Below, one piece after another: positions 45,309 to 54,728 of a DNA stretch of 64,000 nucleotides. Every line of letters begins with the position of its first letter. Position 1 is the stretch's first letter. The DNA is from Ancylobacter sp. WKF20 (GTDB lineage: Bacteria; Pseudomonadota; Alphaproteobacteria; Rhizobiales; Xanthobacteraceae), in contig NZ_CP121679.1 of assembly GCF_029760895.1 (NCBI RefSeq), positions 1,426,001-1,490,000 on the forward strand, given 5' to 3'. The notes beneath the pieces are model-generated. The model did no database searches. It saw nothing but the letters and a program-made list of their open reading frames with translations, and was not told where the DNA came from. The position numbers were made by a program, and so were the translations under genes.

Positions 45309-46046
45309 TCAGGCGGCGGTCTTGACCGCGCCATCCTTCATCCGGGCGGCGAGCGACTGCGTCGCGCCAAGGCTGAACAGATGCGCGTAGATCGCCCCGA
45401 GGAAGTTCAGCCGGCGCAATTCCAGCAGCGCCGCCTCGGAAATCGCCGCGAACTTGGCCTCGTCCACGATGAAGAGGCCGTGGACGCTGGCGCTCGCGCC
45501 TTCAGGCGTCTTCACGTCGAGGGTGACGCTGCGCAGCAGGTCGAACTCCCCAAGCTTGGCGCAGAGCTGCTCGGTGCGCTTGGCGGCGCCGGCATATTCC
45601 GTCACCAGCTTCACCGTCGCGTTCAGGGCCGGCGTCGCCTTGCCCTCGTCGTCGAACAGGCGCTCGACGCCCTCCCCCACGCCGAAGCCGGCATGGCCGG
45701 TGTCGACGCAGATCAGCGGGTCGCCCGCCGGCCGCTCGCCGAGGATGAACGGGAAGCGCCGCAGATAGGCCGGCAGATACCCTCCGTTCCAGCGTCCTTC
45801 GCTGATGAACAGGTTGCTCTGCGCCTTCAGCCCGCACAGGAACACGGCCGAGTGGCCGGTGCCGGCGGGGGCGAAAACGATGGGAATCTCGCGCGCCGCC
45901 GCGGCAAACTCCTCGGCCACCGCCGGGATGATGTGGGCGCGGGCCGCGAAGCCGAAGCGGTCGGCGGCGGTCGAGACGCCATGCGCCCGATGCGCCTGGC
46001 TGTCGAGCGGAACGACCGAGGAGTAGAAGAGCGGCAAGTCGGACAT
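45309..46046 (-). CDS. SapC family protein
   Basis: A 245-residue soluble protein of the SapC family (PF07277 as I recall it). The family takes its name from an S-layer-associated protein, yet most members have no known function. Visible signatures are L-P-L-F-Y-S-S-V-V-P-L near the start, V-A-E-E-F-A-A-A-A-R-E-I-P-I-V-F, G-R-W-N-G-G-Y-L-P-A-Y-L-R-R-F-P-F and I-C-V-D-T. It has no signal peptide. Start ATG 46046 agrees with family starts; the longer upstream frame is unsupported. It is divergent from the SLC23 permease. Confidence 0.85.
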   Translation of the reverse strand: MSDLPLFYSSVVPLDSQAHRAHGVSTAADRFGFAARAHIIPAVAEEFAAAAREIPIVFAPAGTGHSAVFLCGLKAQSNLFISEGRWNGGYLPAYLRRFPFILGERPAGDPLICVDTGHAGFGVGEGVERLFDDEGKATPALNATVKLVTEYAGAAKRTEQLCAKLGEFDLLRSVTLDVKTPEGASASVHGLFIVDEAKFAAISEAALLELRRLNFLGAIYAHLFSLGATQSLAARMKDGAVKTAA

Positions 46047-46305
46047 GGGGGTCTCGGCTCTGGGAACGGGGAACGAGCGCCAGCGGTAGATCCGTAGCGC
46101 CTCCGTTTTAGCGTAGCTCCGCCCACCTTGTCCTGCCAAACAGCGACGAGCCCCCAGCCGGCGCCCGCCGCCCGCTTGCGGGTGCCGGCGCTTGTCGCCA
46201 TAGTCGCGCCACGGATTCCCGGCCTCGATACGCCCCGTCCGGCACCGATCGCGGCGCCCGGTGGAACGTGTTGTGCGCGGGATGCCCTCCCGCCCGAGCG
46301 ACCGC

Positions 46306-48012
46306 ATGCCCCGCAAGCCACAAAACATCCTCTACGCCGCCAATGAGAAGCCGCCGCTGACCACGCTGCTGATTCTCGGCGTGCAGCACGCGACCCTGTC
46401 GCTGCTCTTCATCGTCTACCCGCTGGTGGCGGCGACCGAGGCGGGGCTCTCCTTCGAGAGCACGCAGATCCTCATCACCAGCTGCATCATCTTCATGGCG
46501 GTGGCGACGCTGCTGGAATGCTGGCCGCGCACCGGCTCCGGGCTGCTGCTGGTGCAGATTCCGAACATGGCGCATCTGCCGCTGGCGTTGCAGTCCTATG
46601 CGGCGGGTGGCCCGGCGGTCTATGTCACGATGAGCCTGATCGCGGCGGTGTCCCAGCTCTCGCTGACGCGCTTCATGAACGCGATGCGCACGCTGTTCCC
46701 GCCGGAGATCTGCGGCGTGGCCGTGACCATGCTCGGCGTGGCGCTGGCCGAGCCGTCGCTGCGGCGCATGTTCGGGCTGGGCGAGGGGCCGGATTCGCTG
46801 GCCGATGGGCGCTATGTGCTGGTGAGCTTCACCGCGCTGGCGATCATCGTCGTGCTGGCGATCTTCTCGCGCGGCCTGCTGCGGCTCTTCGCGGTCGCCA
46901 TCGGCGCGGCGATTGGCTGGATCCTCGCCGTCTATACCGGCGTCGCCATTGCCCCGGCCGAGCCGACCTTCTCCTCCCTGCCCTATGTCGATCTGCCGAG
47001 CCTTGGCTGGCCGGGTCTTGGCTTCTCCTGGGCCATCGTCCCGGCTGCCGTGATCACCGGCATCATCTCGGCGGTGGACATGCTCGGCACGGTCGTCTCC
47101 ATGCAGCGCATGGACGATGCTGACTGGCGCCGCGCCGACATGAACCAGGCGGCGCGCGCCATCCGCGCCAACACCGTCAGCGACATGGGCACGGCGGTGA
47201 CCGGCGGCTTCGCCAGTGCCTCCTCCTCGGCGGCGATCGGCGTGGCCTTCGCCACCGGCAGCACGGCGTGGCGCATCGGCATCGTCTCCGGCGTGGTGAT
47301 GCTGCTCGCGGCCTTCTCGCCGAAGCTCATCGCCTCGCTGACCGTGATCCCCGCGCCGGTGATCGGCGCCATCCTGCTCTACAGCGCCGCCTTCCTGATC
47401 GTCGCCGGCATGGAGCTGATCCTCTCCCGCCGCCTGTCGGACCGGCGCATCTTCACGGTGGGTCTCGCCGTTCTCGCGGGCCTTGCCGTCGCGGTGCTGC
47501 CGCAGCTGGTGCATCAGGCGCCCGGCTGGGCGCAGCCGATCCTGGAATCGCCGCTCTCGGTGTCCACGGCGGTCGCGGTCATCCTCAACCTCGTCTTCCA
47601 GATCGGCATCCGCCAGACGGCATCGGTGCCGGTGACGGCCGATGACAACCCCTTCACCGCCTCCACCGAGTTCCTTGAGCGGCAGGGCGACCTCTGGGGC
47701 GCGCGGCGCGACGTGGTTGCCGCCGCCATCCCCGTTGTGGCCGAGGCGATCGAGACGCTGATCGACACCGGCGTCGCCGAAGACGGGCTGGAGATGGAAG
47801 CGCGTTTCGACGAGACCAATTTCGATGTCGTGCTGCTCTACAAGGGCGAGGCCATCGAGATCCCCACGCTGCGGCCCTCGCCGGAAGACCTGCTGGGCGA
47901 CGCGAAGGCCGTGGCACGTTTCGTCGGCTACATGCTGAGCAAACGGGCCGACAAGCTGGTGCTCGGCAAGCGCGGCGAGCGCCAGGCCCTGACGCTGCGC
48001 TTCGAGCACTGA
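46306..48012 (+). CDS. SLC23/xanthine-uracil-type permease fused to a degenerate RsbW/GHKL-like domain
   Basis: A 568-residue membrane protein. Residues 1-440 give about 12-14 membrane spans typical of nucleobase permeases (for example G-V-Q-H-A-T-L-S-L-L-F and G-G-F-A-S-A-S-S-S-A-A). Residues about 446-568 are soluble and align by eye with the RsbW-like kinase encoded two genes on: V-A-E-A-I-E-T-L-I-D stands where the kinase has V-D-E-F-V-N-N-A-V-D, and the final R-Q-A-L-T-L-R-F matches R-N-V-V-T-L-R-L. The ATP-box Asn, the D-x-G aspartate and the second glycine box are lost. Start 46306 is uncertain; GTG 46261 and ATG 46282 are alternatives. Confidence 0.85.
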   Translation: MPRKPQNILYAANEKPPLTTLLILGVQHATLSLLFIVYPLVAATEAGLSFESTQILITSCIIFMAVATLLECWPRTGSGLLLVQIPNMAHLPLALQSYAAGGPAVYVTMSLIAAVSQLSLTRFMNAMRTLFPPEICGVAVTMLGVALAEPSLRRMFGLGEGPDSLADGRYVLVSFTALAIIVVLAIFSRGLLRLFAVAIGAAIGWILAVYTGVAIAPAEPTFSSLPYVDLPSLGWPGLGFSWAIVPAAVITGIISAVDMLGTVVSMQRMDDADWRRADMNQAARAIRANTVSDMGTAVTGGFASASSSAAIGVAFATGSTAWRIGIVSGVVMLLAAFSPKLIASLTVIPAPVIGAILLYSAAFLIVAGMELILSRRLSDRRIFTVGLAVLAGLAVAVLPQLVHQAPGWAQPILESPLSVSTAVAVILNLVFQIGIRQTASVPVTADDNPFTASTEFLERQGDLWGARRDVVAAAIPVVAEAIETLIDTGVAEDGLEMEARFDETNFDVVLLYKGEAIEIPTLRPSPEDLLGDAKAVARFVGYMLSKRADKLVLGKRGERQALTLRFEH

Positions 48013-48129: not shown

Positions 48130-48462
48130 ATGCAGATCGACCGCTTCATCGAAAAGGATGTCGTCATCACCACCGTGAAGGGGCGGCTCGACAGCAGCTC
48201 CTCGCACAAGCTGGACGACTTCCTGGCGGAGATCCCGCAGGGCAACAACCCGATCCTGCTCGATTTCGCCGAGCTCACCTATATCAGCTCGGCCGGGCTG
48301 CGCGTCGTGCTGAAGGCGACCAAGCTCGCCCGCAGCCAGGGCGTGGCGCTCGCCATTTGCAGCCTCGTGCCGCAGGTGCATGAAGTGTTCGATGTCAGCG
48401 GCTTTACCACGCTGATCCCGATCCATCCCAGCCGCGACGCGGCGCTCGCCGCCCTCGCCTAA
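48130..48462 (+). CDS. STAS-domain anti-sigma-factor antagonist (RsbV-like)
   Basis: A 110-residue single-domain STAS protein. The phosphorylatable Ser region reads L-T-Y-I-S-S-A-G-L-R-V-V-L, as in SpoIIAA/RsbV, and G-R-L-D-S-S-S-S-H begins the fold. In partner-switching its unphosphorylated form binds the cognate kinase. A GGGAT element stands before the ATG. It follows the permease and precedes the RsbW-like gene, so the rightward run is permease-STAS-kinase. Confidence 0.92.
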   Translation: MQIDRFIEKDVVITTVKGRLDSSSSHKLDDFLAEIPQGNNPILLDFAELTYISSAGLRVVLKATKLARSQGVALAICSLVPQVHEVFDVSGFTTLIPIHPSRDAALAALA

Positions 48463-48500: not shown

Positions 48501-48947
48501 ATGATCATCCGGGAGATCGACCTCAGCCTGCCGAACCAGCTCTCGCAGATGGAGGGTCTGGTCGCCGCGCTCGACTTCTTCATCGAGACCTCCGCCATCC
48601 CCGCCAAGCCGGCCTATCGCCTGCACCTCGCGGTGGACGAGTTCGTCAACAACGCCGTGGACTATGGCTACAAGGACGGGCGCGCCGGCGAGATCGGCGT
48701 GCATCTGCGCCATCTGGGCGAGGCGCTGGAACTCACCCTGTCCGATGATGGCGACGCCTTCGATCCGTTCAACGCCCCCCCGCCGGACCTCGCCGGCACG
48801 CTGGACGAGCGCCGGATCGGCGGGCTGGGCGTGCATCTCGTGCGCACGCTGGCCGACAGCTTTGCCTATAAGCGCGAGAATGGCCGCAACGTCGTGACGC
48901 TTCGCCTCTCCCTCGCCGGTGAGACCGCGCAGGCGCGGGAAGCCTGA
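48501..48947 (+). CDS. RsbW-like anti-sigma factor serine/threonine kinase
   Basis: A 148-residue GHKL ATPase that should phosphorylate the STAS partner and sequester a target. N-box D-E-F-V-N-N-A-V-D-Y-G, G1 box L-S-D-D-G-D-A-F-D-P and G2 box I-G-G-L-G-V-H-L-V-R are intact. It begins 38 bases after the STAS stop, consistent with one operon, and ends 16 bases from the convergent Na/Pi transporter. No sigma-factor gene is in the window, so the regulated partner is unknown. Confidence 0.92.
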   Translation: MIIREIDLSLPNQLSQMEGLVAALDFFIETSAIPAKPAYRLHLAVDEFVNNAVDYGYKDGRAGEIGVHLRHLGEALELTLSDDGDAFDPFNAPPPDLAGTLDERRIGGLGVHLVRTLADSFAYKRENGRNVVTLRLSLAGETAQAREA

Positions 48948-48963: not shown

Positions 48964-50559
48964 TCAGCTCGATTCCAGCGCCCGGTGCGCCTGGGTGAAG
49001 TCGTTCACCAGCCGGCGCGCCATCCAGACGATCCGCTCGAACAGCATGGTCATGCGGAACAGCGCGTTCTGCGCGCCGGGCGTGATGTCCTGCTGGGCGG
49101 AGAGGCGCAGCCGCAGATCTTCCATCAGTTTGTCGCGATGGCCGAGAAGGCCGAGCACCAGCGCGGCATCCTCCGCCCCCAGGCTCTCGCCATGCTCCGC
49201 GACCGCGCTCAGCAGCGCGTGCAGCGCCTCGATCAGCCGCTGGGCGGTATCAACCGCCTGCGCCTCGCGGGCCGCCTCGACGAATTCCGCCAGCGCCTCA
49301 TGCAGCGCCCCGGCATTGGTCGCGCCCTCATCGACCAGCAGCGCGGTCGCCACCTGCTCGCGGGTCAACGCGCCATCGAGCAGCGTGGCGAGATAGGCGC
49401 GGATGGTGCCGGCGAGCGACTGGCCGGCGGTCTTCAGCGTCGCCGCCGGCGGCGTGCTCGGCTCGCCCTCGTCGCGCACATGATCGAGCAGCAGCGGCAG
49501 GCGGGCGCTGAGCCGCGCCAGCTCGCGCAAGGCGAGGTCGAGCGCGGTTGATGGATCGCCCGCCGCCTCGCGCAGCAGGAAGGCGGGCTGGGCCAGCGTC
49601 TCCGCCGGGCTTTCGCGCGTCACCCGCAGCAGCAGGTGCCGGGTCGGCGTTTCCAGCAGGTTGGTGATGAAGGCGCCGCCGATCTGCGCCAGCAGGAACA
49701 GGATGGCGATCTGCGCGCCGGCATCCTCGCCCACGAGGCCCAGCGCGCCATCCAGATGGGCGGGAAACAGCGCCGCGATCACGCAGACCAGCGCCAGCAG
49801 CGCCGAGCCGGCGACCTTCTGCAGCACCTGCAGGGCGAAGACGATGCGCCCGGACATCGCCTCGCCGGGGATCAGGATGATGTTGTTGACCGAGCCGGCG
49901 AGATTGGCGCCCGCCACCAGAGGCAGGGCGGCGCCGAGATCGAGAAGGTCGCTGCCCACCGCCGTCACCGCGATCGCCGCCGCGACGGAGGAGGACTGCG
50001 CGGCGAGCGCGAAGGCGGCACCGATGCCCGCCAGCAGCCAGGGGCTACCCACGGCAATCTCCCACAGCGGATTGCCCATTAGGCTCTCACGCATCGGCCC
50101 AACCGCGACCGAGACGAGGTGCATGCCGAACAGCAGCAGCGCGGCGCCGAGCGCGGCTTCCATCACGTTGCGCATACGGTCGCCGCGCGCGAGGTTGAAA
50201 TAGGTGGCGAAGCCGACAATGCCGATGACGATGGCGGCCGGCGTCGCCGTGTCGATGGCAACGATCAGCGGCAGCAGCGCGGTGCCGACATTGGCCCAGG
50301 TCGGCGCCAGCAGCGCCGGCCCGTCCGGCAGCACGCCGCCGCGCACGAAGGAGACGATGATCCACGAGACGGCGGTCGAGCTCTGCGTGACCATGCCGGC
50401 CACGACGCCGCTGATCGCCGTGCTCAACGGCGCCCGCAGCGCCCCGGCAAAGGCCGCGCGCGCCCGCCGGCCGACCAGCGGCACGAGATTGGCGGAGAGG
50501 CCGCGCACGCCGATGAAGAACAGGCCGAGCCCGCTCAGCAGAAATCCAACCGGTCCCAT
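48964..50559 (-). CDS. Na/Pi cotransporter family protein with PhoU-like tail
   Basis: A 531-residue transporter. The membrane part (about 1-305) shows the paired QSS motifs of the NptA/SLC34-like family, T-Q-S-S-T-A-V-S and A-Q-S-S-S-V-A-A. From about residue 320 the protein is soluble and largely helical, resembling a PhoU-like regulatory region. It is the last gene of the leftward operon (PP2C regulator, hybrid kinase, response regulator, transporter), with a 54-base gap from the response regulator. Confidence 0.9.
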   Translation of the reverse strand: MGPVGFLLSGLGLFFIGVRGLSANLVPLVGRRARAAFAGALRAPLSTAISGVVAGMVTQSSTAVSWIIVSFVRGGVLPDGPALLAPTWANVGTALLPLIVAIDTATPAAIVIGIVGFATYFNLARGDRMRNVMEAALGAALLLFGMHLVSVAVGPMRESLMGNPLWEIAVGSPWLLAGIGAAFALAAQSSSVAAAIAVTAVGSDLLDLGAALPLVAGANLAGSVNNIILIPGEAMSGRIVFALQVLQKVAGSALLALVCVIAALFPAHLDGALGLVGEDAGAQIAILFLLAQIGGAFITNLLETPTRHLLLRVTRESPAETLAQPAFLLREAAGDPSTALDLALRELARLSARLPLLLDHVRDEGEPSTPPAATLKTAGQSLAGTIRAYLATLLDGALTREQVATALLVDEGATNAGALHEALAEFVEAAREAQAVDTAQRLIEALHALLSAVAEHGESLGAEDAALVLGLLGHRDKLMEDLRLRLSAQQDITPGAQNALFRMTMLFERIVWMARRLVNDFTQAHRALESS

Positions 50560-50613: not shown

Positions 50614-50982
50614 TCATGACAGGCCGAGCAGCGCGTTGATCTTGCCCATCAGCCGGGGGAGCTCCACCGGCTTGGTGTCGAAGTCATCGCACCCGGCCGC
50701 CAGCGCCTGCTCGCGGTCCTGCGCCATGGCATGGGCGGTGAGCGCGATGACGGGGATGGCGCGGGTGGTGGGATCGGCCTTCACCCGCCGCGTCGCCTCC
50801 CATCCGTCGAGCACCGGCAGGCTCATATCCATCAGGATCAGGTCCGGCTTTTCGGATCCGGCGAGATCCACCCCTTCCTGACCATTGACCGCGATCACCA
50901 CCTCGAAGCCGTTGCGCGTCAGGCGCCGGCTCAGCATGTCGCGGTTCATCTCATTGTCTTCGACCAGCAGAATTTTCGGCAT
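50614..50982 (-). CDS. Single-domain response regulator (CheY/DivK-like)
   Basis: A 122-residue receiver domain with no output part. It has the acidic pocket L-V-E-D-N-E-M-N, the phosphoacceptor Asp in L-I-L-M-D-M-S-L-P, the switch Thr in A-L-T-A-H-A-M and the Lys in D-T-K-P-V-E-L. It is 9 bases from the hybrid kinase gene and presumably receives phosphate from it or relays it to another partner. Confidence 0.94.
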   Translation of the reverse strand: MPKILLVEDNEMNRDMLSRRLTRNGFEVVIAVNGQEGVDLAGSEKPDLILMDMSLPVLDGWEATRRVKADPTTRAIPVIALTAHAMAQDREQALAAGCDDFDTKPVELPRLMGKINALLGLS

Positions 50983-50991
50983 GTTCCCTCC

Positions 50992-53316
50992 TCACCCCGG
51001 CTTGTGGCTGGCGATGGTGGCCAGCGCCGAACCGAGCGAGCCGATCGGCTGCGCGCTCTTGTTGAGGATCAGCAGCGTGTTGCGGGCGAGGAACTCGCGC
51101 TCCTCGGCCGTCAGCTCCTTGGCCGTCAGCACCACGATGGGCAGGTCGCCGAAACGCTCATCGGCACGTACATGCGAGAGAAACTCGAAGCCGTCCATCT
51201 CCGGCATCATCAGGTCGAGCAGCACCAGCGCCGGCAGATGATGGGCCTCCAGCCAGTCGAGCGCCGCCTGGCCGTTCGCCGCCTCGGCGGCGTGCAGCCC
51301 GACATCCTCGATGGTCTTGCGGATCATGGCGCGGACCTGCGGATCGTCATCGACAACCAGCACCAGCCCCTCCTCCTCGCCCGGCGCGAACTTATGGATC
51401 AGCGCGATCAGCCGCTGCCGGTCGATCGGCTTGGTCATGTATTCGGAGGCGCCGAGCGAATAGCCGAGATTCCGGTCGTCGACGATGGTCAGCATGATGA
51501 CCGGGATGTGCTCGAGCGCCGGCTCGGACTTCATGATGCCGAGCACCGACCAGCCGTCGATCTTCGGCATCATCACGTCGAGCGTGACGATGTCCGGCGG
51601 CTCGCGGCGCATGATGTTGAGTGCCTCGATGCCGTCGCGGGCGTGGCGCAGCACATAGCCTTCCTTGCCGAGCGTCGCCGCCAGCACCTCATGCACCGCC
51701 GGGTCGTCATCGACCACCAGCACGGTGATGGCGCCAGGCTCCGCCGGCGCGCCGGGATCGGACAGGTCGGGCGCTGCCGCGCTGTCGGCCGCCGCCGTCT
51801 TGGTCTCGACCGGCAATTCGATGGTGAAGGTCGAGCCGACGCCGGGCTGGCTGGCGACGTTGATCGTGCCGCCGAGCATGGCGGCGAAATGCTTGGTGAT
51901 GGTCAGGCCGAGCCCCGTGCCGCCGAAATTGCGGGTGGTGGAGCTGTCCGCCTGGGTAAAGGCCTGGAACAGCCGGCCCATCTGCTCCTCGCTCATGCCG
52001 ATGCCGCTGTCGGCGACCTCGAAGCGCACCACCTCGCCGCCCTCGCCCTCGATGCGCAGGAGGCGCAGCACGACCTCGCCCTTCTTGGTGAACTTGGCGG
52101 CGTTGCTGAGCAGGTTGATGAGGCTCTGCTTCAGCTTGGTCACATCGGTGCGCAGCGAGCCGATATCCATCGGGCAGTCGATGACGAAGCGGTTCTCGTT
52201 CTTCGCCATCATCGGGCTGACGATGGTCTTCACCTCTTCCACCATGCGGGTGAGGAAGACCTGCTCGAGATAGACGTCCATCCGCCCGGCCTCGATCTTG
52301 GAGAGGTCGAGGATGTCGTTGATGAGACCCAAAAGGTGCTTGCCGGCGGCCTGGATCTTGTCGAGGTCGGCGACCATCGCCGTGTTGCCCTCGTCGGCCG
52401 CGTCCTCGGAGAGGATCTCGCTGTAGCCGATGATGGCGTTGAGCGGGGTGCGCAGCTCATGGCTCATATTGGCGAGGAAGGCGGATTTGACCCGGCTCGC
52501 CGATTCCGCCGCTTCCTTGGCCTCGCGCAGCTGCTGCTCCATGCGCACCCGGTCGCTGATGTCGACGAAGGTGCCGATGATCGCCGGCTGGCCGCGGAAA
52601 TCGAGATGCTCATGCGAGACCATGGTGCAGATGCTCGTGCCGTCCGAACGCGGCAGGTAGAACTCCTGCCGCTCGGTCGACGGGCTCATGAGAATGTCGA
52701 TCAGCCGGGCGGTCTTCTCGGTGTCGCCCACCAGCTCGGCGATGGGCCGGTCGATCAGTGTGGCCGCATCCTTGCCGATCAGCCGGCCGAAGCAGCCATT
52801 GGAATGGCGCACCACATGGCTCTTTATATCCATGATGACGAGGCCGACGGGCGCGGCGGCGTCGATGGCGCGCAGCTGCTCCTCGTCCTCGCGCAGTTTC
52901 ATCTCGGCGATCTTGCGCTCGGTGATGTCGGTGTAGATGGCGATGAAGCCGCCGCCGGGCACCGGGTCGCGCCGCACCTCGAGATAGGTGCCGTCCGGCC
53001 GCACGCGCTCGAAGGAATGGGGATGGTCGAGCTGCTTGATGCGCTGGGCCAGCGCCACCTCGATATCCACCTCGCCGAACTCACCGCGCGCGCCGAGATA
53101 GCGGATGTAGTCGGCAAAGGTGTGCTCGCTGGTGAGGAACTCGTCGGGCATGTCGAGATATTCGCGGAACAGCTTGTTCCACGTCACGAGGCGATGCTCG
53201 GCGTCATACATGGCGACGCCCTGCGACATGTTCTCCAGCGTCGCCCGCAGCAGCGTGGCCTCGCGCCCGTCCAGCCCCTCCTCGGGAAGGGTCGCGGCCT
53301 TCGTGTCCTTGGTCAT
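50992..53316 (-). CDS. PAS-PAS hybrid histidine kinase with two receiver domains
   Basis: A 774-residue soluble sensor. Domain order: PAS 1 (about 25-135), PAS 2 (about 145-258), HisKA with S-H286-E-L-R-T-P-L-N, HATPase (about 390-503) with N-L-L-S-N-A-A-K, D-S-G-I-G and G-G-T-G-L-G-L, then receiver 1 (530-640, Asp580) and receiver 2 (650-770, Asp701). No membrane helix is apparent, so it senses a cytoplasmic cue. It sits 24 bases after the REC-PP2C gene and 9 before the response regulator. Confidence 0.95.
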   Translation of the reverse strand: MTKDTKAATLPEEGLDGREATLLRATLENMSQGVAMYDAEHRLVTWNKLFREYLDMPDEFLTSEHTFADYIRYLGARGEFGEVDIEVALAQRIKQLDHPHSFERVRPDGTYLEVRRDPVPGGGFIAIYTDITERKIAEMKLREDEEQLRAIDAAAPVGLVIMDIKSHVVRHSNGCFGRLIGKDAATLIDRPIAELVGDTEKTARLIDILMSPSTERQEFYLPRSDGTSICTMVSHEHLDFRGQPAIIGTFVDISDRVRMEQQLREAKEAAESASRVKSAFLANMSHELRTPLNAIIGYSEILSEDAADEGNTAMVADLDKIQAAGKHLLGLINDILDLSKIEAGRMDVYLEQVFLTRMVEEVKTIVSPMMAKNENRFVIDCPMDIGSLRTDVTKLKQSLINLLSNAAKFTKKGEVVLRLLRIEGEGGEVVRFEVADSGIGMSEEQMGRLFQAFTQADSSTTRNFGGTGLGLTITKHFAAMLGGTINVASQPGVGSTFTIELPVETKTAAADSAAAPDLSDPGAPAEPGAITVLVVDDDPAVHEVLAATLGKEGYVLRHARDGIEALNIMRREPPDIVTLDVMMPKIDGWSVLGIMKSEPALEHIPVIMLTIVDDRNLGYSLGASEYMTKPIDRQRLIALIHKFAPGEEEGLVLVVDDDPQVRAMIRKTIEDVGLHAAEAANGQAALDWLEAHHLPALVLLDLMMPEMDGFEFLSHVRADERFGDLPIVVLTAKELTAEEREFLARNTLLILNKSAQPIGSLGSALATIASHKPG

Positions 53317-53340: not shown

Positions 53341-54540
53341 TCAGCCCGCCGGAACGCCGTCCGGCCCGAGCGCCAGCAGGATCGCCGCCATGTCGTCAAA
53401 GGCCGGCAAGCCGGCCTCGAAGCCGCGCACGTCGCTGACGAGGCGGGCAAGCACCCGCGCCTCGCCCGGCGCTTCCGCGTGCCCCAGTTCGGCGAAAAGG
53501 GCGGCGAGCCGCTCCTCGCCATAGAGCGCCGCGCCGGCATTCTGCGCCTCGGTGAAACCATCGGTGACGATGAGCAGCCGGTCGCCTTCGGCCAGCACGG
53601 CCTGCGCGCTCCGATACGGAAACTCTTCCATCACGCCCAGCGCCGGCCCGCCAAAGCCCTGAAGCCGGGACAGGCCGCCATCAGCGCGGCGCAGGAAAGG
53701 CGGCACATGGCCGGCGCGCACATAGGCGAGCTCGCCGCTCGCGGCCTCCAGCACGGCCAGCGTCAGCGTCACGAACATGCAGCCGGCATTGCCGCGTGAC
53801 AGCGCGTCATTGACCATGCCCACCGCCCGCGCCGGATCGCCGAACAGCGCCGGCGCATCCGGCCGCGCCGCCAGCGCGCGGAACATGGCATGGGTGCGCG
53901 CCATCATCAGCGCCGCGGCGGCGCCCTTGTCGGAGACGTCGCCGACGATGAGCGCCATGCGGTCGTCGCCCACCGGGAAATAGTCGACGAGATCGCCACC
54001 GACCTCCTTGGCCGGTTCCAGCAGCGTGTCGATGGTGAGCACGCGCCCGTCCACCGTGCCGGCAAAGGCCGGCGGCACCAGCGCGAGCTGGAGCGTGCGT
54101 GCCTCGTTCAGCTCCACCTGCTTGCGGCGCAGCTCGTCGCGCGTGCGGTCGCGCAGCGCCTTCTTCTCCAGCGTCGCCATGACGCGGGCGCGCAGCAGCG
54201 TCGGGTTGAAGGGCTTGAAGATGAAATCGTCGGCGCCCAGCTCGATGCAGCGCACCACCGGGTCGATCTCGTTCAGCGCCGAGACCACGATCACCGGCAG
54301 GTCATGGATCGCCCCGCTGGCTTTCAGCGCGTCGAGCACGCCGAAGCCGTCGAGTTCCGGCATCATGATGTCGAGCAGCACGAGGTCATAGGCGGTCTTG
54401 CCGATGGCGGCGAGCGCCTCATGGCCGTTGGCGGCCTCGTCGAGGCGGCTGAAGCCAAGCCGTTTCAGGCGGCGCATGAGCAGATCGCGATTCTCGGCGA
54501 CGTCATCCACCACCAGAATCGCCGCGTTCGGGTCTGCCAT
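53341..54540 (-). CDS. Response regulator with SpoIIE/RsbU-type PP2C phosphatase
   Basis: A 399-residue protein: receiver domain (1-125; phosphoacceptor in V-L-L-D-I-M-M-P-E-L, Lys in F-I-F-K-P-F), a helical linker (A-L-R-D-R-T-R-D-E-L-R-R), then a PPM-type phosphatase (about 160-395) with E-V-G-G-D-L-V-D, I-V-G-D-V-S-D-K-G, and I-V-T-D-G-F-T-E metal motifs. It fits a RsbU-like role: when phosphorylated, dephosphorylate the STAS protein. ATG 54540 starts the receiver; the longer frame upstream is unsupported. Confidence 0.94.
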   Translation of the reverse strand: MADPNAAILVVDDVAENRDLLMRRLKRLGFSRLDEAANGHEALAAIGKTAYDLVLLDIMMPELDGFGVLDALKASGAIHDLPVIVVSALNEIDPVVRCIELGADDFIFKPFNPTLLRARVMATLEKKALRDRTRDELRRKQVELNEARTLQLALVPPAFAGTVDGRVLTIDTLLEPAKEVGGDLVDYFPVGDDRMALIVGDVSDKGAAAALMMARTHAMFRALAARPDAPALFGDPARAVGMVNDALSRGNAGCMFVTLTLAVLEAASGELAYVRAGHVPPFLRRADGGLSRLQGFGGPALGVMEEFPYRSAQAVLAEGDRLLIVTDGFTEAQNAGAALYGEERLAALFAELGHAEAPGEARVLARLVSDVRGFEAGLPAFDDMAAILLALGPDGVPAG

Positions 54541-54728
54541 CGGCGCGCCTGCCCCCGCTCCATGAAGTCGCGCGGAATATCCACGCAAAGCCCGGCCTTA
54601 GCAACGGCGGAAGCCGTCTGACGCTGCGGCAGTCCGGTGGGATTTTCCGTGGCATGCGCGGCGGCGACGCAGCGGCATGGCAAAGCGGCGGGCCGGACCC
54701 TAGATAGGGAGGAGACGAGGGAGACAAG

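Follow-up and report, generated by a model that had tools for sequence, protein, structure and literature searches.

A predicted degenerate RsbW-type domain at the C-terminus of an SLC23/NCS2-type permease encoded with a partner-switching set in Ancylobacter sp. WKF20

RESULTS

A tailed permease and a complete partner-switching set share one locus

We analysed a 64,000-nucleotide stretch (hereafter the window) of the Ancylobacter sp. WKF20 genome, which comprises 4.63 Mb in one contig; the features discussed are collected in Table 1. The permease reading frame (46261-48012, plus strand) is open from a GTG at 46261. Since close homologues are 567-574 aa long and the family consensus begins with MPRKP, translation probably begins at the ATG at 46306, which gives a protein of 568 aa. 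The longest frame of a divergently oriented SapC-family gene (45309-46328, minus strand; PF07277, 201.9 bits) overlaps the permease start. The transporter body scores 136.1 bits with the Pfam model Xan_ur_permease (cut-off 27). Among NCBIfam models it exceeds the cut-off for NCS2_1 purine/pyrimidine permeases alone (61.7 bits, cut-off 40), PbuX and the remaining models staying below theirs. Its closest solved structures are UapA and UraA by sequence and UraA, UapA and SVCT1 by fold.

Residues Ser53-Ser54 of the STAS protein encoded next to the permease are presumably its phosphosite, by homology to known STAS switch proteins; all 37 STAS rows, among which that of the window appears twice, keep the aligned Ser. 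A genome-wide search returned a single SpoIIE match, the PP2C phosphatase at 53341-54588. HATPase_c_2 gave 17 matches, with one strong stand-alone protein, the kinase at 48501 (88.5 bits), and a 370-aa frame as the next best (42.4 bits). STAS scored 61.7 bits at the window gene, and a second match, in a 413-aa frame, reached 23 bits (cut-off 22.6). Thus, the one SpoIIE of the genome and its sole strong matches to stand-alone RsbW and to STAS are all encoded no more than 8.3 kb from where the permease begins, so that the genome has one evident partner-switching set, encoded around the permease. No sigma factor was found among the ten genes of the window scanned with Pfam. By computational annotation, a complete switch set (STAS, RsbW with intact boxes, receiver-PP2C and hybrid histidine kinase) is encoded with a permease whose RsbW-type tail has broken ATP boxes. 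Sixteen of 17 Ancylobacter-group loci share the set of permease, STAS, RsbW, Na/Pi cotransporter, response regulator, histidine kinase and PP2C; at the 17th (L002) the permease, STAS and RsbW were found and the rest of the set was not.

Table 1. Features of the window, and type-2 tailed permeases at other loci (positions in the respective locus record)
Feature	Position	Strand	Evidence
SLC23/NCS2-type permease	46306..48012	+	568 aa; Pfam Xan_ur_permease
Asp258 in the position of the TM8 substrate Glu (UapA E356 / UraA E241)	47077..47079	+	permease alignment
Ala309-Ala310 replacing [Gln/Glu]-[Asn/Ser] of the TM10 motif	47230..47235	+	permease alignment
Predicted C-terminal pseudo-RsbW (GHKL) domain, residues 443-568	47632..48009	+	stop codon follows
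Thr484 at the N-box Asn position	47755..47757	+	Asn in 0/79 tails
Tyr512 at the G1 Asp position	47839..47841	+	Asp in 0/79 tails
Ala-Arg-Phe-Val 537-540 replacing Gly-Gly-x-Gly of G2	47914..47925	+	tail/RsbW alignment
Stand-alone STAS protein (RsbV/SpoIIAA-like)	48130..48462	+	Pfam STAS 62.4 bits; NCBIfam ant_ant_sig 73.3 bits, above cut-off
Likely phosphosite Ser53-Ser54 of the STAS protein	48286-48291	+	aligned Ser conserved
RsbW-like serine kinase; N, G1 and G2 boxes intact	48501..48947	+	Pfam HATPase_c_2 88.6 bits
Na+/Pi-cotransporter-family protein	48964..50559	-	Pfam Na_Pi_cotrans 89.2 bits
Single-domain response regulator	50614..50982	-	Pfam Response_reg 91.4 bits
Hybrid histidine kinase: two PAS regions, HisKA, HATPase_c, two receivers	50992..53316	-	Pfam
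Receiver + SpoIIE-type PP2C phosphatase	53341..54588	-	Pfam SpoIIE 147.7 bits, Response_reg 94.7 bits
NCS2 permease with type-2 RsbW-like tail, L115	5425-7212
NCS2 permease with type-2 RsbW-like tail, L119	5839-7683
NCS2 permease with type-2 RsbW-like tail, L122	5899-7683
NCS2 permease with type-2 RsbW-like tail, L132	5461-7350
NCS2 permease with type-2 RsbW-like tail, L136	5722-7440
NCS2 permease with type-2 RsbW-like tail, L140	5803-7686

The tail belongs with RsbW-type GHKL domains

A preliminary description, made by eye, had placed a degenerate RsbW/GHKL-like domain at the C-terminal end of the permease. The placement at this end holds, but the proposed start, 47643, misses the reading frame by one base, and the in-frame start is 47632. 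The matching endings it pointed to are present (...ALTLRF(EH) in the tail and ...VVTLRL in the RsbW encoded at 48501). A two-sequence BLASTP of the window tail against this RsbW gave no match, and the tail alone matched no Pfam or NCBIfam model. Likeness judged by eye was therefore insufficient as proof, and we applied profile-profile and fold methods.

Aligning 79 tails with 31 neighbouring RsbW proteins in hhalign gave a probability of 96.1% (E 2.9e-9, 117 columns). Control comparisons scored 0.23% (tail against STAS) and 0.37% (tail against reversed RsbW), and the best raw score from 30 column shuffles was 17, versus 55 for the real pair. When the 18 Ancylobacter-group tails were used alone, the probability was 6.35% (E 0.0058), so that the link of the window protein to RsbW rests on the wider tail family and on the structure model. 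The Pfam HATPase_c_2 model matched 3 of 18 scanned tails (best E 0.0015), the window's not among them, and hmmsearch with the tail profile A2 found no PDB sequence at E up to 10. At E up to 10, a clean RsbW profile, from which the permease fragment L037 had been excluded, matched 19 of the 83 permease frames, again without that of the window; three of these, all Syntrophus-type tails, were matched at E up to 1e-3 (E 2.5e-6 to 7.1e-5). Among the controls it matched no reversed frame (of 83) and 4 of 1660 shuffled tails (best E 0.43).

The AlphaFold2 model of the tail has a pLDDT of 93.7 and a pTM of 0.87. Foldseek returned 12 PDB chains for it at E up to 0.001. Ten of them are SpoIIAB, RsbW or UsfX, and the histidine kinase AdeS (rank 6) and LvrC (rank 10) make up the rest. 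The tail aligns with RsbW/SpoIIAB structures across its full length. Profile comparison of the C-domain with RsbW and its structure prediction both favour the earlier claim: homology to RsbW is found (96.1% against less than 0.4% in the controls), the predicted fold is of the RsbW GHKL type, and the fusion of such a degenerate domain to an SLC23/NCS2 permease is supported. Judged from profiles and model, the tail is almost certainly an RsbW-type GHKL domain.

The tail shares fold and homology with the anti-sigma kinases RsbW, SpoIIAB and UsfX (HATPase_c_2, GHKL). It differs from them in the fusion to a permease, in the loss of the ATP boxes in 79 of 79 tails, and in conserved motifs of its own, WGARR, FDE and a C-terminal F-x-H. 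The most conserved segment is WGARR, present in all 79 tails, partly owing to the scan pattern.

Residue alignment confirmed the reported loss of all three ATP boxes, with the N-box Asn, the G1 Asp and the G2 glycines absent from the window tail. The G1 Asp position is occupied by Tyr in 69 of the 79 tails. None of the three G2 glycines is present in 60 tails, one in 19, and two or three in no tail. All 31 neighbouring RsbW proteins have the N-box Asn and keep all three G2 glycines. Glu480 of the N-box and Gly514 of the G1 box are retained in the window tail. From the altered box residues, the tail is predicted not to bind ATP.

The substrate site is remodelled

Like UraA, UapA, XanQ and PbuX, the window permease has a Xan_ur_permease domain, and UraA and UapA are its top matches. 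Unlike described SLC23/NCS2 proteins, it has a C-terminal domain and lacks the TM10 substrate Gln/Glu. SLC23 proteins have been described as being without carboxy-terminal domains (PMC6497670). In UapA, E356 (TM8) and Q408 (TM10), equivalent to UraA E241 and E290, bind substrate, and the E356D substitution increases xanthine affinity 18-fold and abolishes transport (PMC3405029). We placed the TM8 position by alignment with 46 permeases that do not have the window's tail type (type 1); UapA stood outside this alignment, the residue roles being those given in the available text of PMC3405029.

None of 82 type-1-tailed permeases has Glu at the TM8 position (Asp in 52, Lys in 17, Arg in 10, others in three), and none keeps the TM10 Gln/Glu, Ala or Ser mostly standing there. 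The TM10 Gln/Glu is also absent from six type-2-tailed permeases (see below). It is present in 38 of 38 scorable tailless permeases (out of 40, L120 and L123 being left out for an unsuitable frame), which at TM8 have Glu (15 of NAT type) or Asp (23 of AzgA type). Since the Xan_ur_permease domain is present and the TM10 motif is not, we describe the window protein as a member of the SLC23/NCS2 fold without an assignable substrate. The lost Gln/Glu speaks against ordinary uptake of xanthine or uracil by the tailed permease, and the altered TM8 and TM10 residues, together with the effect of UapA E356D, make ordinary nucleobase uptake doubtful. The Lys or Arg that many lineages have at TM8 would fit an anion substrate or a sensor role.

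Linkage to the switch module recurs across lineages

A tail scan of contigs from 84,980 species yielded 76 tailed loci. STAS and RsbW genes share the locus with the tailed permease in 30 of them (29 under a frame-length filter that removes L017), PP2C in 27, and all three in 26. STAS, RsbW or both are absent from the other 46, some of which end at contig ends; all Xanthobacter, Azorhizobium, Achromobacter, Bordetella and Syntrophus loci found are without an adjacent STAS and RsbW pair. By record name, the linked proteobacterial groups are three Ancylobacter-like ones, one made up of two Rhizobiales MAGs, an alphaproteobacterial and a betaproteobacterial MAG, Verticiella, Comamonas and a deltaproteobacterium; the others are Formimonas (Bacillota), Methanosarcinales, Methanothrix, another euryarchaeote and Rokubacteria.

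Gene order varies: STAS-PP2C-RsbW-permease in L043, permease-STAS-PP2C-RsbW in L050, and a divergent STAS with RsbW downstream in L058, L061 and L072. The input domains of the PP2C also vary by lineage (5TMR-LYT in three archaeal records, MASE1, HAMP, receiver). In L043 (2720-4108), L047 (6772-8136) and L050 (6909-8270), whose record names point to methanogen-type archaea, the 5TMR-LYT and SpoIIE phosphatase is encoded between STAS and RsbW, next to the tailed permease.

Chance linkage was assessed with 53 NCS2 places from 115 unselected genomes of one class; seven of the 60 places there were left out (five partial or weak, one in a region already included, and the window's own), and contig ends cut seven of the 53 stretches short of their planned length. 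No STAS, RsbW or PP2C gene was found within ~6 kb of any of the 46 unselected permeases without this tail type. In hand-made genus/MAG groups of tailed loci, STAS and RsbW are linked in 14 of 36, versus 0 of these 46 (Fisher P-value 1.7e-6), a comparison in which the controls all come from one class and the tailed loci span phyla, many being closely related. In the unselected class sample the module adjoins one of the seven permeases with this tail type. Linkage is thus frequent in the tailed family, yet far from universal.

A second tail type and the permease tree

Six of the 46 control permeases carry RsbW-like tails of a second type (Table 1), with a different motif set and a comparable match to RsbW (hhalign 96.0%, E 4.4e-9); the L115 tail also matches Pfam HATPase_c_2 (E 3e-4). 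A type-2 profile matches just those six among the control permeases, which leaves 40 of the 46 as tailless, and weakly matches a true RsbW (L135 7552-8229, E 0.0021). No STAS, RsbW or PP2C gene was found within ~6 kb at the type-2 loci.

In the permease tree, both tail types form one clade of 88 tips (support 0.998) without a tailless member, which fits a single fusion event; the support for the type-1 clade by itself is 0.606. The module occurs in 11 tip groups of this tree, counted by eye and with the tandem genes of L046 taken as one. Tandem tailed permease genes were seen in L031 (2603-6378), L041 (3-3343) and L046 (1324-4855), an arrangement that suggests heterodimeric carriers.

RsbW co-occurs with the tail at the genome level

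SpoIIE/PP2C was found in 35 of 35 genomes of loci without an adjacent STAS and RsbW pair (covering 35 of the 46 such loci), the base rate of SpoIIE in the class being 52 of 115 genomes over cut-off. An RsbW relative was found in 28 of 28 genomes, which belong to those 35. One genome in both sets, that of L067, contains a further tailed locus, L064, and this one does adjoin the module. Since the genome sets differ taxonomically, a comparison inside the class is the fairer test. There, strong RsbW matches (E<1e-15, a threshold chosen after inspection of the list) occur in six of nine genomes with either tail type, the source genome left out, versus 1 of 31 other NCS2 genomes (P-value 1.4e-4). 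At E 1e-5 the counts are 7 of 9 and 5 of 31 (P-value 0.001), the 31 including four (G060, G062, G069 and G106) with partial or weak NCS2 matches of uninspected tail status. Type 1 occurs in six of the nine tailed genomes (strong RsbW in four) and type 2 alone in three (strong RsbW in two). No RsbW match at E 1e-5 was obtained in G101 and G114, whose divergent tails (L133 and L129, respectively) are without the WGARR and FDE motifs, and the match in G149, a further tailed genome, is weak. In G003:C3, G004:C38, G031:C14 and G018:C99, from genomes in which the tailed permease examined has no module next to it, a PP2C and an RsbW relative are encoded ~5-9 kb apart, away from that permease.

DISCUSSION

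Partner switching is known mainly for freeing sigma factors, and several partner-switching systems have, to our knowledge, no known target; of the proteins compared below, RbaY is a receiver-PP2C. At the locus described here, a switch best known for gene control may be wired directly to a transporter. Repeated adjacency, varied gene orders, genome-unique parts and co-occurrence with RsbW speak for a link between the tailed permease and the module; against a strict link, the module adjoins one of seven unselected tailed permeases, and two of nine tailed genomes are without an RsbW match. On balance, a functional link between the two is quite probable.

In RsbV/RsbW/PP2C switches known so far, an RsbW-type partner is bound by the STAS protein in its unphosphorylated state, and phosphorylation frees the STAS protein (PMC8256260, PMC3999984). 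By analogy, the RsbW kinase of the window would phosphorylate the STAS protein on Ser54 (or Ser53), and the receiver-PP2C, under control of the hybrid kinase, would strip the phosphate. Unphosphorylated STAS could then dock on the pseudo-kinase tail as it would on RsbW, with no phosphorylation taking place there, and this docking would alter carrier activity, on or off. A tail with the RsbW fold that does not phosphorylate would make a stable receptor for unphosphorylated STAS, so that kinase and phosphatase would set the STAS load on the carrier. The two halves of the STAS-RsbW contact would be divided between the carrier (tail) and a soluble protein (STAS), and the transporter would stand in place of the Bacillus subtilis sigma factor, the output being a membrane protein and not RNA polymerase. 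Of the readings considered, we hold it the most likely, with about an even chance, that the tail is the docking site by which the STAS protein controls the carrier.

RsbW proteins form dimers, and the main rival to STAS docking is that the tail heterodimerises with the live RsbW, holding it at the membrane and altering its activity, with the permease as input or transceptor. Such an arrangement has a precedent in Mycobacterium smegmatis, where RsbW3, an RsbW relative, acts as an antagonist by binding the switch component RsbW1 in an RsbW1-RsbW3 heterodimer; no transporter fusion of RsbW3 is described in the available text (PMC10950880). The match of the tail to RsbW/SpoIIAB structures along its whole length would also fit, as would the absence of the TM10 Gln/Glu from 82 of 82 tailed permeases, which a receptor might show. 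However, the PP2Cs of the module already have inputs of their own (receiver, 5TMR-LYT, MASE1, HAMP), and we regard the heterodimer as possible but somewhat unlikely. In a related reading, which we hold to be unlikely, the NCS2 body with its remodelled site would be a membrane receptor or an unusual carrier whose tail competes with the live RsbW for STAS, in bacteria and archaea. If that were true, a whole SLC23 clade (both tail types, 88 sequences) would consist of switch components and not of nucleobase carriers.

The tail might also descend from RsbW but now serve a single NCS2 subfamily in structure or dimerisation, outside any switch, with the module an ancient or casual neighbour. The missing STAS and RsbW pair at 46 of 76 loci and at six of seven unselected tailed loci would agree with this, as would the tandem tailed permeases without the module (L031, L041), the two of nine tailed class genomes in which RsbW was not matched at E 1e-5 and the weak match in the third (G149). 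Yet linkage is repeated in 11 tip groups with differing gene orders and RsbW co-occurs with the tail at the genome level, which makes a purely structural role improbable.

The set in the window resembles the Rba system of Rhodobacter capsulatus, likewise an alphaproteobacterium, which has a STAS protein, an RsbW-like kinase and a homologue of RsbY (PMC3999984). Its rbaVW genes (rcc03323-4) and rbaY (rcc00181) stand apart, unlike the window set; a cognate sigma factor was not found for it, and the word permease does not occur in the available text of that paper (PMC3999984). That the locus encodes an Rba-type switch which in truth acts on an unlinked sigma factor or enzyme, its sharing of the locus being incidental, is highly improbable: R. 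capsulatus does have RbaV, RbaW and the RsbY homologue RbaY, and enzymes can also be controlled in this way, but a sigma partner was likewise not found for RbaW (PMC3999984), the ten Pfam-scanned window genes include no sigma factor, and linkage to the tailed permease recurs in archaeal, Bacillota and several proteobacterial-class records.

The preliminary description had further likened the arrangement to SLC26/SulP carriers, whose C-terminal STAS domain is needed for full function (PMC8256260, PMC6497670). In position and context the analogy is fair: SLC26/SulP proteins belong to the same 7+7 fold family (PMC6497670) and end in a domain from the STAS/RsbW world, and a STAS protein is encoded by the next gene here. 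The tail itself is not a STAS domain (hhalign 0.23%); unlike in SLC26/SulP, it is a kinase-like partner, and STAS is a separate protein. SLC23 proteins can thus carry a C-terminal domain from the signalling world of the SLC26 STAS domain.

In the literature searched, which covered few subscription papers, we found no system that joins a permease or SLC23 protein with STAS, anti-sigma, GHKL, HATPase_c_2 or partner switching. Each component is of a known kind, and their combination was not found there. The predicted fusion of pseudo-RsbW and carrier offers a concrete, testable candidate for a non-transcriptional target of partner switching, and loci that link it to the switch range from Ancylobacter to records labelled Methanothrix. 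With a tail and two small soluble proteins, the layout lends itself to simple binding tests. The Na+/Pi-cotransporter-family protein encoded inside the switch cluster (48964-50559) might be a further target or work as a functional partner.
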